Below are positions 4,748 to 13,318 of a stretch of 13,814 nucleotides of DNA, piece by piece. Position numbers and translations under genes: made by a program. Every line of letters starts with the position of its first letter. The stretch's first letter is position 1. The notes under the pieces were generated by a model. It was not told where the DNA came from and ran no database searches. It worked only from the letters and a program-made list of their open reading frames with translations. Source of the DNA: an uncultured Erysipelotrichaceae bacterium (lineage in GTDB: Bacteria; Bacillota_I; Bacilli_A; Erysipelotrichales; Erysipelotrichaceae); contig CADBMY010000016.1 of NCBI GenBank assembly GCA_902795905.1, positions 1 to 13,814 on the forward strand, in the 5' to 3' direction.

Positions 4748-4759
4748 CAATCTTAAGAA

Positions 4760-4826
4760 TTGACTTGTTGCGCTGTATTAGTACACATAGTACAATTAGT
4801 ACAGATAGTACAGATGGAGGTGGAGG
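4760..4826 (+). promoter_or_regulatory. Promoter with four tandem TAGTACA repeats (GntR operator candidate)
   Basis: A -35-like TTGACT is at 4760-4765. The matching -10 is uncertain: TACACA (4782-4787, 16-base spacer), or TACAAT (4791-4796) paired with a weaker TTGCGC (4768-4773). Four contiguous 9-bp repeats of the form WTAGTACAN follow, at 4778-4786, 4787-4795, 4796-4804 and 4805-4813, covering the -10 and start region. The first overlaps a near-palindrome TGTA-TTAG-TACA (4774-4785). Repression by the GntR protein encoded next is the likely role. Two GGAGG sequences (4816-4820, 4822-4826) precede the start; the first is correctly spaced, the second abuts the ATG. Confidence 0.75.
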
Positions 4827-5180
4827 ATGTTCCTACTGAACTTACAAAGTAAAGTACCGATCTATGAACAGATCCTGTCACAGATCATCCGCTTCATCGA
4901 TGCAGGTGTGATGAATCCCGGCGACAAGCTTCCCTCGGTAAGACAGCTGGCTCTGGATAACGGGATCAATCCCAATACCGTAGCCAGGGCATATGCCATG
5001 TTGGAGGAGAAGGGATATGTATATAACCTGCCGAAGAAGGGTGTATATGTGGCAGAGAAGATCAGTAAAGACACGGGAAAGGATGAAATGATCCGCAGTG
5101 TGCTGAAGCCGCTGAAAGATAACGGAACAACTAAAGAAGAGATCATGCATGTACTGGATGAGCTCTATCCGGAGGACTGA
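4827..5180 (+). CDS. YtrA-subfamily GntR transcriptional repressor
   Basis: This is a 117-residue short GntR regulator. The start matches the family hallmark (SKVPIYEQI at residues 8-16). The winged helix includes GDKLPSVRQLA and the recognition helix NPNTVARAYAMLEEKGYVY, with the wing at LPKKGVYV. Only a ~40-residue helical tail for dimerisation follows, instead of a ligand-binding domain; this defines the YtrA type. Members repress operons that begin with their own gene and continue with ABC transporter genes, often in response to cell-wall-active antibiotics. Here the stop codon is one base before the ATPase start, and the ATPase ribosome binding site lies inside this gene, implying translational coupling. 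Four tandem TAGTACA repeats in its promoter are the probable binding sites. Confidence 0.95.
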   Translation: MFLLNLQSKVPIYEQILSQIIRFIDAGVMNPGDKLPSVRQLALDNGINPNTVARAYAMLEEKGYVYNLPKKGVYVAEKISKDTGKDEMIRSVLKPLKDNGTTKEEIMHVLDELYPED

Positions 5181-5181
5181 T

Positions 5182-6066
5182 ATGTTAGAGATCAAGAATG
5201 TATATAAGAAATTCAAGGATAAGGAAGTACTGAAGGGACTGTCGCTGGAAGTAGCAGATGGTTCGATCTTCGGTCTGGTCGGTGTCAACGGTGCCGGTAA
5301 GAGTACACTGCTGAGGCTGATTGCAGGTGTCTACCGCAGCGACAGCGGAGAGATCACCTGGAATGGCGAAGATACGTATAAGAACGAGAAGATCCGCAGT
5401 CAGATCGCCTTTGTCTCCGATGAACAGTATTATCCGATCGGCAGTACGGTAGAATCACTGAAGCTTCTCTACGAGACCGTATATGACTTTGACGAAGAGG
5501 CATATCAGAAGTATCTGAAGGTCTTTGAACTGGAGCCGAAGATGTCGATCAACACGCTGTCCAAGGGCATGAAGAGAAGAGTATCACTGCTGTTTGCGCT
5601 GTCCATCCATGCCGGACTGATCCTGCTGGATGAGGCATATGACGGACTGGAACCTCTTGCCAGACTTCGCTTCAAGCATGCGCTGACGGAACTGATCGAA
5701 GATGAACATGTATCGGTGATCATCTCCAGTCATAACCTGAAGGAGCTTGAGGATATCTGTGATTCCTTCGGTATTCTGGAAGACGGGAAGATCATCAGCT
5801 ACGGTGATCTGCTGCAGTCCAAGGAAAGAATAAACAAGTATCAGCTTGTCTTTGAGAAAGAGCCTGTACGCAGTGATTTCGATGCCTTCGATGTTCTGCA
5901 CTATGAGAATGAAGGCAGAGTGTGCAAGCTTGTCATCCGCGGGGATGAAGAGGAAGTGACAGCGAAACTGAATGAGATGAAACCTGTACTGATGGATGTA
6001 CTGCAGGTCAACTTCGAAGAACTGTTTATCTATGAACTGGAAAGCAGGGGTACCGGAAATGAATAA
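5182..6066 (+). CDS. ABC transporter ATP-binding protein (YtrB-like)
   Basis: This is a 294-residue ATPase. I place the start at ATG 5182, giving the usual MLEIKNVYKKF opening; GGAGG (5171-5175) is 6 bases upstream, and an upstream in-frame ATG (5149) lies inside the GntR gene. Walker A is GVNGAGKST (34-42). The signature is LSKGM (126-130) rather than LSGGQ, a variant common in this exporter class. Walker B is LILLDE (146-151) followed by a D-loop-like GLEP, and the H-loop His is 184 in SSHNLKEL. A C-terminal region of about 80 residues follows the core. It powers the permease encoded next, whose start overlaps its end by 8 bases. The YtrA regulator in front points to an exporter or antibiotic-response transporter, not an importer; no binding protein is present. 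Confidence 0.95.
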   Translation: MLEIKNVYKKFKDKEVLKGLSLEVADGSIFGLVGVNGAGKSTLLRLIAGVYRSDSGEITWNGEDTYKNEKIRSQIAFVSDEQYYPIGSTVESLKLLYETVYDFDEEAYQKYLKVFELEPKMSINTLSKGMKRRVSLLFALSIHAGLILLDEAYDGLEPLARLRFKHALTELIEDEHVSVIISSHNLKELEDICDSFGILEDGKIISYGDLLQSKERINKYQLVFEKEPVRSDFDAFDVLHYENEGRVCKLVIRGDEEEVTAKLNEMKPVLMDVLQVNFEELFIYELESRGTGNE

Positions 6067-7603
6067 AAAGTATATCAATTATCTGTTTAAGAACCGCAGG
6101 ATCGCAGTCGTATTCTTCCTGATCCTGTATCTTGGCATCAGTCTGTCCGGGTTTATGAACATGTACAGAGACCTGACACCTCAGGGCCTGCTCGATCGTG
6201 TAAAGGATGCTCTGGGCGTTGGCTTTGCCATGAGCATGATCCTTGCCTATGCACTGCCGGTGCTCCAGTTCAGCTATGTCCATTCCAAAAAGAGCGTGGA
6301 TCTGTTCTTCGCAATGCCGGTCAGCCGCAGGGATCAGCTGCTTGGCAATATCCTGTTCTGCTTTGCAGTATCGTTCGGCTACTTCGTGATCAATGCGGTA
6401 CTGGCATATATCCTCGGCAGAGGCGGTACGATCCCTGTTGATAACTATCTGATCTATGTTCTGGCTGCCGGTATTTATCTGCTGGTAATGATCGTGATCA
6501 CATCGATGTTCTATCTGTTAGCCAACAATGTCTTTGACGGTATTGTCATGATCGGCGCTTACTCAGCCCTGCCTCTTTTGATCTGGGCTGTAAAGGACAG
6601 CTTCATCAGCTATACGGTTGCCGGCATGTCAACGACAGGATTTGATACACTGTCAGGATATTTCTCACCGCTGTATATGATATCCATCACGATGGACAGA
6701 CTGTATGATCACCTGAACAAGAGCTTTATGAATGCAGGAATCAACCCGGTCTTTGCGGTACTGCCGGTGATCATGGCTGTTATTGCGGCGTGGCTGCTGA
6801 AGAGACACTTTGTGGACAGAGAGGCTGAAAGGGCAGACCAGGTCTCCGATCAGTTCTTTGCCTATCCGTTTGTGATCCATATCTATGCGTTCCTGATCAT
6901 GGTGATCTTTGGTTTCAGCTTCCGTGACAACAGTTTTGCGACGTCGTTCCTGTGGTATATATTACTGCTGTTTGTCTATATCGTTGCGACCTTCGTATAC
7001 AAGCGTAAGATCGAGATCACCCCGAAGTATCTGATCCGCTATGGCGTCGGTGTGCTGGTCACGCTGCTGTTTGGCTATGCGGCATTTGCGACGGAAGGCT
7101 TCGGTCAGGCCAGAAAATATACGACGAAAGAAGGAAACTATCTGCTTTACACATACGATGCGATGACAGACTGTCGGGATCTCGGCAGACTGGTTGATCA
7201 GGAAAATGGCGAAGATTGGATCAACGGCTGTAATGTCAGAGTTGCTGTATCGATTCCGACAAGCCGATTCGATGATTACCGTGAAGTGCTGGATATGATC
7301 GATCAGAAGCGTCAGCAGGATATTGACTGGTTTTACGGTGATTACGATCAGTACCGCGGATATCAGATCCATACGATGTTCGTGAATACCGACAAAGCAC
7401 CGGAAAATGATGATGACGGAAGGGCCTGGTATAACTCCTGGAACCAGTGGCATTACAGCAGTAAGGAGACTTTCACGGAAGATCAGCTGAAGTATCTTGC
7501 CCAGTACGGAGAGGTCACGATCTGGCCTAACGATTATGAGAAATGGCCGTATGAAGACGGTCAGGTAGATCTGGAGCAGTTTATTGAAGACAGAGGTAAA
7601 TAA
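6059..7603 (+). CDS. ABC transporter permease with large C-terminal non-membrane domain
   Basis: This is a 514-residue membrane protein starting at ATG 6059, inside the end of the ATPase gene (8-base overlap), with AGGGG 8 bases upstream. I count about nine hydrophobic segments, near residues 15-34, 52-72, 96-120, 131-155, 160-178, 230-247, 268-287, 296-314 and 326-344. The FFAMPVSRRDQLL stretch (83-95) is the coupling loop typical of ABC-2-type permeases in YtrA-controlled operons. Residues ~345-514 form a hydrophilic domain rich in Tyr, Trp and Asp with no family I recognise; if the helix count is odd, it lies outside the cell. The permease would form the membrane pore of the exporter. Its stop is 2 bases before the next gene. 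Confidence 0.9.
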   Translation: MNKKYINYLFKNRRIAVVFFLILYLGISLSGFMNMYRDLTPQGLLDRVKDALGVGFAMSMILAYALPVLQFSYVHSKKSVDLFFAMPVSRRDQLLGNILFCFAVSFGYFVINAVLAYILGRGGTIPVDNYLIYVLAAGIYLLVMIVITSMFYLLANNVFDGIVMIGAYSALPLLIWAVKDSFISYTVAGMSTTGFDTLSGYFSPLYMISITMDRLYDHLNKSFMNAGINPVFAVLPVIMAVIAAWLLKRHFVDREAERADQVSDQFFAYPFVIHIYAFLIMVIFGFSFRDNSFATSFLWYILLLFVYIVATFVYKRKIEITPKYLIRYGVGVLVTLLFGYAAFATEGFGQARKYTTKEGNYLLYTYDAMTDCRDLGRLVDQENGEDWINGCNVRVAVSIPTSRFDDYREVLDMIDQKRQQDIDWFYGDYDQYRGYQIHTMFVNTDKAPENDDDGRAWYNSWNQWHYSSKETFTEDQLKYLAQYGEVTIWPNDYEKWPYEDGQVDLEQFIEDRGK

Positions 7604-7605
7604 GT

Positions 7606-7899
7606 ATGACACCTGTACTGAATTATGATGATATGACGGTGGTAACCGACGGCCGCAGGGAACATCTGACACCGAAGGAATTCGACATTCTGGATTTCCT
7701 GCTGAGGAATCCCGACCGTGTATTTACCTCCGATGAGATCTATGAAGAGATCTGGGGATGTGAACCGTTTGAGACAAACAGTATCATTGCCGTACATCTG
7801 AGACATATCCGGGAGAAGATCGAAAAGGATCCCTCCAAGCCCAGGATGATCAGATCTCTGTGGGGCAGAGGCTACCGCTACTGCACCGACAGTGAGTGA
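7606..7899 (+). CDS. Stand-alone OmpR/PhoB-type winged-helix DNA-binding protein, no receiver domain
   Basis: This is a 97-residue protein consisting almost only of the C-terminal effector domain of an OmpR/PhoB response regulator. LTPKEFDILDFLL (21-33) and FTSDEIYEEIWG (40-51) are the first two helices. The recognition helix spans about 58-72 (NSIIAVHLRHIREKI), and the wing hairpin ends in WGRGYRY (86-92), normally V-R-G-V-G-Y. The ~120-residue phospho-acceptor receiver domain is absent, and no coding remnant for it exists upstream: the preceding bases belong to the permease in a different frame. No histidine kinase is nearby. AGAGG (7592-7596) inside the permease gene gives a 9-base spacing. 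It ends the four-gene operon and is followed by a strong terminator. A second regulator of the transporter, modulated by something other than phosphorylation, is the simplest inference. Confidence 0.9.
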   Translation: MTPVLNYDDMTVVTDGRREHLTPKEFDILDFLLRNPDRVFTSDEIYEEIWGCEPFETNSIIAVHLRHIREKIEKDPSKPRMIRSLWGRGYRYCTDSE

Positions 7900-7903
7900 C
7901 AGT

Positions 7904-7941
7904 AAAGGCTGTATCAGTAAACAGACTGGTACAGCCTTTTT
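7904..7941 (+). terminator. Strong Rho-independent terminator ending the GntR-ABC operon
   Basis: A 15-bp stem pairs 7904-7918 with 7925-7939 (one T-G pair) around a 6-base loop, with the T-run to 7941. It begins 5 bases after the winged-helix gene. Confidence 0.93.
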
Positions 7942-10704: not shown

Positions 10705-10765
10705 TTGACGAATTTGGTTTATCACGATAAACTAAGCGTGTGGTTTATACGAATAAACCGGGAGG
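10705..10765 (+). promoter_or_regulatory. BlaI-type operon promoter with two matched palindromic operators
   Basis: The promoter is TTGACG (10705-10710), 17 bases, TAAACT (10728-10733). Two palindromes with the same arms surround it: GTTTATC-ac-GATAAAC (10717-10732), which spans the spacer and -10, and GGTTTAT-acga-ATAAACC (10742-10759), in the start region. Their centres are 26 bp apart, about 2.5 helical turns. This is the layout of an autorepressed BlaI/MecI operon, but the arms differ from the usual TACA/TGTA cores. GGGAGG (10760-10765) is the ribosome binding site, abutting the second operator, 8 bases before the start. Confidence 0.85.
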
Positions 10766-10773
10766 TGTACAGG

Positions 10774-11139
10774 ATGAAAGATATGGAACTCGGCGCTGTG
10801 CAGGAACGATTTGCGGATATCGTCTGGGCGCATGAACCGATCTCTTCCGGGGATCTCGTCAAAGTATGCGAGAAGGAGCTGAACTGGAAGAAACCGACAA
10901 CGTATACGGTTCTGCGCAAGCTCTGTGAGAAGGGGCTTCTTCAGAATGTTGACGGCATCGTTACCTCCCGGATCACAAAGGAAGACTTCTATGCACAGAA
11001 AAGCAGACAGATCATAGAAGAATCATTCAGCGGTTCACTGCCGGCATTTATTTCTGCCTTTGTCTCCGGCAAGAAGCTCACTGCTGAAGAAGCAGAAGAG
11101 ATACAGAAGATGATCGAAGCCTTCAGAAAGGAAGACTGA
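10774..11139 (+). CDS. BlaI/MecI/CopY-family transcriptional repressor
   Basis: This is a 121-residue repressor. ATG 10774 is chosen for its GGGAGG site and family-like N-terminus; an in-frame TTG at 10705 lies in the -35 box. The winged helix occupies about residues 5-72: ERFADIVWAHEPISSGDLV, then the recognition helix KKPTTYTVLRKLCEKGLL, then the wing to SRITKEDFYA. The C-terminal ~45 residues form the dimerisation tail (KLTAEEAEEIQKMIE). In Staphylococcus BlaI/MecI the BlaR1-linked cleavage is at Asn-Phe in this region; the aligned spot here reads S-A-F (Ala95-Phe96). One base separates its stop from the M56 peptidase gene, the classical repressor-sensor pair. It probably binds the two GTTTAT palindromes in its own promoter. 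No beta-lactamase or PBP gene is next to it. Confidence 0.93.
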   Translation: MKDMELGAVQERFADIVWAHEPISSGDLVKVCEKELNWKKPTTYTVLRKLCEKGLLQNVDGIVTSRITKEDFYAQKSRQIIEESFSGSLPAFISAFVSGKKLTAEEAEEIQKMIEAFRKED

Positions 11140-11140
11140 C

Positions 11141-13318
11141 ATGAGTGCTGTATTTCTGGGGATCCTGAGGATGAGTATTAAAGCAGGATGGCTGATCCTG
11201 GCTGTGATCCCGCTGCGTTTTCTCCTGCAGAAGTCTCCGAAATGGATATACTGTGTGCTCTGGGGACTGGTTGGGATAAGACTTGTCTGTCCGGTTTCAC
11301 TGCCCGGTCCCTTCAGTCTGATCCCGCATGTGAAACTGCCTGTTACGGATACAGCTCAGATCTCATTGATCAATGCGGGCATTACCGTGATCAATGAAAC
11401 TTCCGAGCCGATCCACTACAGTACGAATACTGTCAGTCAGAGCGTTGGGTCTGGTACCGTGCAGGGATTCATGAACGTGTTTACCGCTGTCTGGATCATC
11501 GGCGTGGTACTGATGCTTGCGTATGCACTGTTCAGTTACCTGAAACTGAAAAGAACGGTATCGGCTTCGATTCCTGAAGAAGAGGACATCATGGTATGCG
11601 ATGATATCTCTTCACCGTTTATTCTGGGGATCATCCGTCCGCTGATCTATCTTCCTTCCGGGCTCGATGAGAAGGTGAAAAAGAGCGTCATCAGTCATGA
11701 GCGGGCACACCTGCAAAGACGCGATCACTGGTGGAAACCGCTTGGCTGGCTGGTGCTGAGTATCCACTGGTTCAATCCGCTGTGCTGGCTTGCCTATATT
11801 CTTCTGTGCCGGGATATTGAAGCAGCCTGTGATGAGAAGGTGATCAGGACCATGGACAGACAGCACATGGCAGCCTATTCCGAGGCTCTGCTTGCGTGCA
11901 GAATGCAGCGGCGCATGATCACTGCCTACCCGGTAGCGTTCGGCAAAACAGGCGTAAAACAGCGTATCAGGAGTATTCTCAGCTACCGTAAGCCTGCGCT
12001 TTGGATCATCATCGTATCGGTGCTTGTGTGTATCATTGCAGGAATAGGTTTCCTGAGTGATCCTGCAGCTGATACAGTGATGGACGAAAAGCTCGCAAGA
12101 TCACTGGAGGCGGCTGCGATGGAACACCATGGCTATACAGCGGATCCGCGGCCGGGGTTTACCGCCGTGGATGCGGATGTGATGAAGATCGTACAGGAAA
12201 AGGACAGTACGGCAGTCTATGCCTGGATCATGTGTGAAAGGTATGCCTATGACGGGGAAAAGGTCAGCCATCAGAGCGGATCACGTATTCCGACTGTGAT
12301 CACGTTTGATACATCATCCGACAGCGAAGATATCTATCCGGTAAAGGAATACTGGCAGCCGCGCGACGGCAGCTATTATGCAGGGGATATCAGAGCGAAG
12401 TTTCCGATACTTCTCTGGCAGAGAGCCTTTGATGTATCGGGTTCAGAAGCACAGAGCGAAAGATGCCGGGCAAAGGCGGAAGCGTACTTTGCGGAAAACG
12501 GATCTTCCGGAGGCATACAGGTGAATGTGAAAACAGCATGGGCAGGATGGTCCGATGACAGCAGGATCTTTACCGAGAGTCTGAATCCTGAGACGATGCT
12601 GATCAGTTCCTACCGTCATCTTCCGGTATATAAAGCCGAAACGGCAGAAGAGCTGAGAAATCTGCGAAGTACCTTTGAAGATATTCTTATCCTGGATCAA
12701 AGTCATTTCGAAGTACCGTCCTTTGATGAGACCGTATCCGTGTATGATGAGAGCTTCTTTGAAGATCATACGCTCGTGCTTGCCTATGTATCGGCTTCAA
12801 GCGGAACCTTCCGCTATGCCGCAGATGACATCAGTACCGATCATCAGGTATTCTCCGTGATCGTCAGACAGACCAATGATCCCGAAGTTTACACGACCGA
12901 CATGGCCGGCTGGTTCATCATCGCCGAAGTGCCGAAAGATCTGCTGGATGGTATCACAGGCTATGATGCCTGGCTGGACCATCAGCCGGGAACAGCAACG
13001 TATCAGCAGTATCCCGGGATGATCGAATACGGGTCATTCTCCTATAAGGAAGAAAGAAACAGCCTGAGCCTGATCATCGGCAGGGATCAGCAGATCAGAA
13101 CGGAAGGATTTGTGCATACCGAGACTGTCGACTTTGTCCTGCCGGAGGATATTGCCAGAGAAGAAGTGACGATAGAGTATGATCTGATCCAGAAGTTCTA
13201 TGATGAAACAGAAGATATCTGGAAGATCCGTTTCTTCAGTTCGGATCCTTTTGCAGGGGAACAGACCGTATATCTTGACGGGCATGGGATCACCAGACTG
13301 ATCGTATACAGTAAATAA
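11141..13318 (+). CDS. M56-family (BlaR1/MecR1-type) membrane metallopeptidase with non-PBP C-terminal domains
   Basis: This is a 725-residue protein. Membrane segments lie near residues 10-28, 36-52, 112-133 and 286-305, with another hydrophobic stretch at 199-223. The zinc protease motif is HERAH (186-190, HExxH), with EAACDE (227-232) supplying the third ligand, probably Glu227. SPFILGIIRPLIYLP (158-172) is also hallmark M56. After the last helix comes a ~415-residue exterior region. Its first part (about 315-435, including the EYWQPRDGSYY segment) looks like a domain seen in other Firmicute M56 proteins. A later part (about 500-605) with SFFEDHTLVLAYVSASSG weakly resembles PrcB-like domains. 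The penicillin-binding transpeptidase fold and its SxxK motif are absent, so the sensed signal is probably not a beta-lactam. The family cleaves, directly or not, its partner repressor. It ends the operon. Confidence 0.92.
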   Translation: MSAVFLGILRMSIKAGWLILAVIPLRFLLQKSPKWIYCVLWGLVGIRLVCPVSLPGPFSLIPHVKLPVTDTAQISLINAGITVINETSEPIHYSTNTVSQSVGSGTVQGFMNVFTAVWIIGVVLMLAYALFSYLKLKRTVSASIPEEEDIMVCDDISSPFILGIIRPLIYLPSGLDEKVKKSVISHERAHLQRRDHWWKPLGWLVLSIHWFNPLCWLAYILLCRDIEAACDEKVIRTMDRQHMAAYSEALLACRMQRRMITAYPVAFGKTGVKQRIRSILSYRKPALWIIIVSVLVCIIAGIGFLSDPAADTVMDEKLARSLEAAAMEHHGYTADPRPGFTAVDADVMKIVQEKDSTAVYAWIMCERYAYDGEKVSHQSGSRIPTVITFDTSSDSEDIYPVKEYWQPRDGSYYAGDIRAKFPILLWQRAFDVSGSEAQSERCRAKAEAYFAENGSSGGIQVNVKTAWAGWSDDSRIFTESLNPETMLISSYRHLPVYKAETAEELRNLRSTFEDILILDQSHFEVPSFDETVSVYDESFFEDHTLVLAYVSASSGTFRYAADDISTDHQVFSVIVRQTNDPEVYTTDMAGWFIIAEVPKDLLDGITGYDAWLDHQPGTATYQQYPGMIEYGSFSYKEERNSLSLIIGRDQQIRTEGFVHTETVDFVLPEDIAREEVTIEYDLIQKFYDETEDIWKIRFFSSDPFAGEQTVYLDGHGITRLIVYSK

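Follow-up and report, generated by a model that had tools for sequence, protein, structure and literature searches.

Why should an exporter operon that opens with a repressor gene close with a second, unrelated DNA-binding protein, one that has the output domain of a response regulator and no receiver? The question is raised by a four-gene unit in a 13,814-nucleotide stretch of DNA, here called the window, from an uncultured Erysipelotrichaceae bacterium (GenBank assembly GCA_902795905.1, contig CADBMY010000016.1). As judged from sequence, this unit is a YtrA-type exporter operon combined with a liberated response-regulator output domain, conserved in the genus and accompanied by a candidate operator. 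The sequence-only reading made earlier of this operon was right, and understated. The features concerned are these.

4751 to 4756, plus strand: TCTTAA box, exactly 17 base pairs (bp) 5′ of the −35 element, proposed site of the winged helix (promoter comparison)
4768 to 4773, plus strand: predicted −35 element TTGCGC, three of six matches to TTGACA, 17-bp spacer to the −10 element (promoter comparison)
4779 to 4812, plus strand: predicted GntR operator, four direct repeats of TAGTACA with a 9-bp period (sites at 4779, 4788, 4797 and 4806)
4791 to 4796, plus strand: predicted −10 element TACAAT (from the sequence)
4827 to 5180, plus strand: YtrA-type GntR regulator, 117 amino acids (aa) (open reading frame (ORF) list, Pfam, NCBIfam)
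5182 to 6066, plus strand: ATP-binding cassette (ABC) transporter ATPase, 294 aa (ORF list, Pfam, NCBIfam)
6059 to 7603, plus strand: ABC-2-like permease, 514 aa, nine transmembrane (TM) segments, then a C-terminal alpha/beta domain at residues ~361–513 (Pfam, hydropathy, AlphaFold2 (AF2))
7606 to 7899, plus strand: receiver-less OmpR/PhoB-type winged helix, 97 aa (Pfam, AF2, PDB matches, short-protein clade)
about 7904 to 7940, plus strand: intrinsic terminator, operon end (minimum free energy −24 kcal/mol, z −6.9)

The protein at the operon's end is a complete OmpR/PhoB winged helix with neither a receiver nor leftover receiver sequence, as first described, and Pfam, AF2 and the open frame agree on this. 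Pfam recognizes Trans_reg_C at residues 17–91 of 97 (E 8.6e-25) and no receiver domain in the protein; no receiver remnant stands upstream in frame, and the open frame around the gene is only 99 codons long. AF2 models a complete winged helix (mean predicted local distance difference test score, pLDDT, 92.8) in which the N-terminal sheet, the three helices and the wing typical of the fold are all present. The model's top PDB matches are the DNA-binding domains of RpaA, VicR, KdpE and YycF, with PhoB at rank 18, and a PDB search with the sequence likewise returned OmpR/PhoB-type DNA-binding domains. Regulators of this type (PhoB, KdpE, VanR, RpaA) have the same complete domain, but they carry the receiver that is absent here, where no kinase gene was found among the scanned neighbours. 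In ToxR and CadC an OmpR-type winged helix without a receiver is joined to a membrane segment and to a sensor domain. The protein here is receiver-less like them, but nothing is fused to it: no membrane segment of that type is present, and the entire 97 aa are modelled as winged-helix fold.

The gene order is maintained in the genus. A protein search gave 39 relatives of the winged helix, 33 of which (P0001–P0033) are 94–101 aa long and have Trans_reg_C alone with no receiver annotation. The permease is present in 54 of 70 genus genomes, and a short winged helix stands behind it in 40 of the 70 (39 fetched loci and the window), that is, in 40 of the 51 with a readable stretch at this position; the other 11 (L251–L261) have none there, and in three (G217, G234, G246) the permease meets a contig end. 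The neighbourhood on which the sequence-only reading staked its proposal is thus conserved within the genus, where relatives do not all carry a receiver and the winged-helix gene is kept next to the ABC genes. No short winged helix was found at E 1e-15 in the 11 gene-less permease genomes or in the 16 permease-less ones. Start codons of the conserved short genes were chosen mechanically; L195, at a contig edge and clustering with full-length response regulators, was excluded from the short set, and L004, also at a contig edge, is partial. Three short members come from named records, namely two 'Solobacterium sp.' metagenome-assembled genomes, one of them Sheep_Rumen, and one 'Erysipelotrichaceae bacterium' metagenome-assembled genome (L035, L081, L039). 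Two irregular cases were seen. In L188 (G211) a 421-aa ORF, IscB/TnpB-like by eye, ends where the permease begins and the GntR and ABC genes are on a different contig (L282), possibly an operon insertion or an assembly join; P0035, a 146-aa metagenomic protein in which the start of an ABC ATPase is joined to a winged helix at a short common motif, is probably an assembly chimera.

A search for this order across Erysipelotrichia and related Firmicutes had been suggested, and outside the genus the gene was not seen in the operon in the loci read. The permease is matched in 80 of 195 sampled family genomes, in 26 of 59 genera, and in the other-genus loci read (L229–L232, L235–L250, L264–L270) GntR and ABC precede it as far as the contig extends, with no winged helix behind it. 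Among the matches listed from 315 genomes of the order, short open frames belong to this genus with one contig-edge exception, and the nearest homologues listed in other genera are mostly full-length response regulators. Eight short-frame stretches from other genera were read and none is a member: L288 holds a regulator of full-length type interrupted by a contig edge, L289 and L290 resemble truncated regulators, and L291–L295 hold other kinds of short winged helix-turn-helix protein. From these sequences, the addition of the winged helix appears to be an innovation of this genus rather than something general to Firmicutes. Within L292–L295, from other family genera, winged-helix proteins of 159–180 aa lie directly behind a P-type ATPase gene (Cation_ATPase families by Pfam in L292 and L293, by eye in L294 and L295); their N-terminus is ~60–85 aa, in which Pfam sees no receiver in the two scanned (L293, L295). 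They make up another, separate instance of a transporter operon that ends with an OmpR-type protein lacking a receiver. L291 (G086) holds two more short winged-helix genes, of 111 and 119 aa, on a single stretch, one of them ~200 bp behind a 442-aa ORF resembling the major facilitator superfamily by eye.

Where did the domain come from? A tree of 90 distinct winged-helix domains places the 49 short ones in a single clade (support 96/96) beside 35 full-length relatives, the finer branching being poorly resolved in an alignment of 95 columns. A gene for a protein of 620–668 aa follows the full-length relative in eight of nine loci read, and the one scanned with Pfam is a histidine kinase. The most likely origin is thus a single release of a response-regulator output domain. 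On the ABC ATPase tree the presence of the gene takes 5–6 changes, most plausibly a single gain followed by several losses. The ratio of nonsynonymous to synonymous substitution rates is 0.00–0.20 for the winged helix in 12 pairs, below that of the permease in 11 of them. Truncated regulators do occur in the family, L290 being an example, but we give next to no credence to the idea that the gene is a decaying response-regulator fragment: decay or recent truncation is ruled out by its presence in 40 genomes, the single clade, the complete fold and strong purifying selection.

The rest of the operon is of a more familiar kind. The four genes share a strand, the gaps between them being 1, −8 and 2 bases, and each ORF was recovered at its plus-strand position, so that the four-gene unit stands as first delineated. 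The first protein matches Pfam GntR (PF00392, E 9.6e-14, residues 13–75) and was assigned to the YtrA type by its size, its helix-turn-helix domain and its ABC neighbours; the subfamily traits are its 117 aa, with no more than a short helical part behind the helix-turn-helix, the ABC genes downstream and a PmtR model spanning residues 3–115. The ATPase (ABC_tran, E 6.2e-25) starts with the ATG at 5182, with an alternative in-frame ATG at 5149, and the permease, which matches ABC2_membrane_3 (PF12698) under the gathering score (E 1.5e-4), has an alternative in-frame ATG at 5996 besides its start at 6059. The terminator, a strong one, is absent from the list of a strict short-loop terminator scan, as is the proposed promoter from that of the promoter scan. 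No histidine kinase family was among the matches listed for the 12 window proteins given to Pfam or NCBIfam, the remaining window not being scanned.

How might the first regulator act? The GntR repeats cover the predicted −10 element and start region. Tandem TAnTACA repeats with a 9-bp period occur upstream of GntR both with and without the winged-helix gene, and all 41 exact triple repeats in the 70 genus genomes (in 37 of them) lie in the fetched loci of this operon, before GntR; they are likely its operator. PmtR of Staphylococcus aureus has a 36-bp footprint spanning the start site, from which PSM peptides displace it (PMC5080381). That 36-bp operator has the length of four 9-bp repeats here, and PmtR, too, is a small YtrA-type GntR whose gene opens an ABC exporter operon served by a single common promoter. 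The proteins are not equivalogs, GntR scoring 61 bits against NCBIfam PmtR (cut-off 200) and the ATPase 139 bits against PmtA (cut-off 350). Unlike the operon here, pmtABCD comes with no mention of a second regulator or winged-helix gene in the accessible portion of the report (PMC5080381).

The second candidate operator distinguishes promoters with the winged-helix gene. In the promoter set ascertained through GntR, TCTTAA stands 17 bp before the −35 element in 17 of the 28 promoters that have the gene, against one of 15 that lack it. With seven promoters added, the counts become 23 of 35 against one of 15 (p 1.3e-4) and, within the genus only, 23 of 35 against one of nine (p 0.006), in Fisher tests that ignore relatedness. 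The seven (L282, L284–L287, L296, L297) lie on other contigs of winged-helix genomes and are assumed to be the 5′ parts of split operons; six were first seen through the box pattern, and all seven were recovered independently by the GntR repeats. L283 (G245), found through the box pattern only, was not counted, and the counts exclude L178 (another GntR), L153, for which no start was found, and L162, with 46 bp of upstream sequence; L262 and L263, with the permease at a contig end, were held as unknown, L253 and L257 were without a readable promoter, and for L182, L183 and L268 the −35 element was placed manually. At its fixed offset the hexamer is common to 16 of 27 non-redundant promoters, and none of 2000 shuffles of these 27 exceeded four sharing one 6-mer at one offset. 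The −35 element differs as well: a perfect TTGACA is found in three of 27 promoters with the gene against 11 of 15 without it (p 8e-5), and in the genus in three of 27 against seven of nine (p 4e-4). A weak −35 element with a box upstream resembles an activator-dependent promoter. L262 has the box, and a winged helix is therefore predicted beyond its contig end; L263, likewise cut, has none.

We consider it reasonably probable that this is a self-regulated exporter operon in which GntR represses and the receiver-less winged helix activates its own operon. The GntR would bind the tandem repeats over the −10 and start region and repress; a transported or membrane-active compound would probably relieve it, by analogy with the action of PSM peptides on PmtR. 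The winged helix may then bind the TCTTAA box upstream of the weak −35 element and recruit RNA polymerase in the manner of PhoB, without phosphorylation, like a permanently unlocked PhoB. Its own level would be its sole control, with little made while GntR is bound; upon GntR release the product of the operon's end would boost the promoter, and such positive autoregulation would make induction sharper and might provide memory. The two-layer switch suggested by the sequence-only reading thereby gains independent support from promoter architecture (repeats, box and weak −35 element), while its activating step is still something we infer; DNA binding, feedback, the inducer and the substrate are likewise what we infer from sequence.

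Several observations weigh against this self-activating switch. The layout would suit a PhoB-type activator in its box (23/35) and in the weaker −35 element with the gene, but the second half-site, towards the −35 element, is degenerate and weak. The exact box is missing from 12 of the 35 gene-bearing promoters; among them L157 has TCTTAC instead, and L147, L149, L171 and L296 have an inverted TTAAGA 20 bp before the −35 element, which was noticed post hoc. The promoter of L255 has the box while the gene is absent. Apart from the neglect of relatedness in the Fisher tests, the ABC tree holds only two well-supported independent pairs, too few for a phylogeny-aware test, and box changes on it (nine) outnumber gene changes (five). 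The box and promoter pattern was not found before the paralogous short winged-helix genes described below. Finally, the free DNA-binding domain of KdpE bound half-sites and promoted no expression in vivo (PMC3264566); receiver loss therefore need not yield an activator.

Some of these points would suit a box that is the site of another regulator, or a UP-like element for the alpha subunit of RNA polymerase, and that is correlated with the gene by descent only. Few gains and losses are independent, L255 has the box without the gene, and the pattern is missing before the paralogs. UP elements, however, are of the A-tract type, unlike an exact TCTTAA with rigid spacing. Descent alone is insufficient, since the sequence upstream of the box is scrambled among the same genomes: between offsets −70 and −27, no 6-mer stands at the same offset in more than two of the 27 promoters. 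The exact 6-mer with its C at position 2 and the rigid spacing also speak against it, as do TTAAG-type half-sites known for an OmpR-family regulator. RR_1586 of Clostridioides difficile is OmpR-type with predicted TTAAG-type 11-bp tandem sites, one of which contains TCTTAA (PMC6222199). This predicted site, TCTTAAGAAATATTTAAGAATT, is close to the box here, and RR_1586 is also a Firmicutes protein; it is full-length and its 11-bp tandem repeat is clear, whereas the second half-site here is weak. On balance we regard foreign ownership of the box as unlikely.

Could the free domain instead repress? It might sit as a repressor or competitor on the site of a full-length response regulator, be it the parent or another, blocking activation or RNA polymerase, and the operon would then be refractory to that two-component system. 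The winged helix does descend from a response-regulator DNA-binding domain, a full-length relative is also kept in many genomes, the box abuts the −35 element, where binding can also block, and the KdpE fragment offers a precedent for binding without promotion of expression. Yet it is alongside the gene that the −35 hexamers are the weaker ones; in ten of the genomes that carry it (our own, G241, G244, G238, G213, G181, G222, G218, G245 and G190) no full-length match appears at E 1e-15, several of the genomes being incomplete; and TCTTAA-N11-TTG was not found in 20 fetched loci of full-length relatives (L201–L220). Such competition thus appears fairly improbable. The self-activating switch finds a partial parallel in PhoB, whose free DNA-binding domain binds DNA 7-fold better than unphosphorylated PhoB, phosphorylated PhoB binding better still (PMC3264566). 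ChxR and HP1043 are OmpR-family regulators independent of phosphorylation, as would be expected of the winged helix here, but they keep the receiver fold, of which it has none; ChxR dimerizes mainly through its receiver and binds DNA more poorly without it (PMC3960148).

Does the winged helix serve other genes? The pattern TCTTAA-N11-TTG-N20-TANNNT has 57 matches in the 70 genomes, and 25 are at the promoter of this operon: 23 in genomes with the gene, one in G225 without it, and one in G217, whose permease meets a contig end. The 32 matches outside the operon compare with 29 for a reversed control pattern, and no wider regulon is therefore visible. A wider regulon was also sought by reading 11 of the 32 outside sites by eye, and no second target conserved beyond close relatives emerged: sites in G200 and G210 precede a Fur-like gene and zinc-type ABC genes, those in G214 and G220 an rpoB-like gene, and the remainder unlike genes. 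In L273 (G208:C66) a near-perfect box with its spacing precedes, by eye, genes for an XRE-like regulator and a membrane protein, possibly a second target in one genome. This site, and the portability of the domain evident from 15 paralogous short copies in other operons or alone, favour the view that the winged helix mainly regulates other genes and that, by lying behind the permease, it merely has its dose tied to exporter expression, a relay from transport activity to expression; with outside matches at control level and no conserved second target, we hold this view to be decidedly improbable.

The 15 extra copies are found in 14 of the 40 genomes. L178 lies behind a different GntR/ABC/ABC2_membrane_4 operon and L181 behind a response regulator/kinase/ABC/FtsX operon. 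L191 and, alike, L192 follow genes for an extracytoplasmic function (ECF) sigma factor, a 190-aa protein without a Pfam match and a DUF4349 protein; in both, the DUF4349 and short winged-helix ORFs overlap. L198 (L199 alike) stands between a MacB-type permease/ABC pair and a lipoprotein-like/ECF sigma pair, an arrangement that L196 resembles as far as its stretch reaches. L161 adjoins a sub-threshold transposase-like ORF, L185 (L189 and L190 alike) is divergent from a flavin-reductase gene, and the surroundings of L164, L180, L187 and L194 are less clear. The recognition-helix Arg (VHxRH) is kept in 38 of 39 fetched core copies, L193 having Cys, and lost in eight of the 15 paralogs, whose targets may therefore differ; box labels of seven loci in this comparison were set by hand from promoters on other contigs. 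Upstream of L180 and L198, TCTTAA is present without the core spacing, and at L198 it lies within TCTTAATAATAACTTAATC, an 11-bp tandem-like repeat. Tentatively, and with somewhat less than even confidence, we suggest that the freed output domain became the self-activating partner of GntR and was later carried, as a portable cassette, to the ends of further regulated operons; its destinations, put forward with the same reserve, would be the second YtrA-type ABC, two-component/ABC-FtsX, ECF-sigma and MacB-type operons.

The sequence-only reading had also proposed tethering to the C-terminal domain of the permease, and this was not supported. Hydropathy windows merge to nine TM segments, and by the positive-inside rule the loop charges place the C-terminal ~165 aa outside the cell; the AF2 model has nine membrane helices followed by an alpha/beta domain (mean pLDDT 82.1), sidedness not being given by AF2. 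ABC-2 membrane domains usually have six TM segments and the permease has nine, its assignment to the ABC-2 type being tentative with the sub-threshold match, and a PDB search with its sequence gave no match at E 0.1. A winged helix held by the transporter and freed or inactivated by transporter activity is accordingly very unlikely: its gene is tightly coupled to the permease gene in a conserved pairing, and cytoplasmic loops or the ATPase could still be partners, but the C-terminal domain is predicted to be outside and short copies occur also away from the permease gene, though only in genomes having the permease. Elsewhere in the window, at 10705–13318, a BlaI-type repressor gene is followed by one for a membrane peptidase of the M56 (BlaR1) type, whose C-terminal part is long.

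No description of this gene combination was found in the titles and abstract openings searched, subscription papers being mostly outside reach. Control of a two-component output domain is usually assumed to depend on its receiver. In the present operon a bare output domain is maintained by strong selection across dozens of species, together with a matching site in the promoter and alongside a repressor, and this amounts to a natural test of an unlocked OmpR domain whose only control would be gene dosage. If the spread as a cassette is true, it would mean a new class of one-component regulator, arisen by domain liberation and controlled solely by its own dose, with positive feedback added to operons that already hold a sensor-regulator. 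The case may show a route from response regulator to one-component autoregulator.

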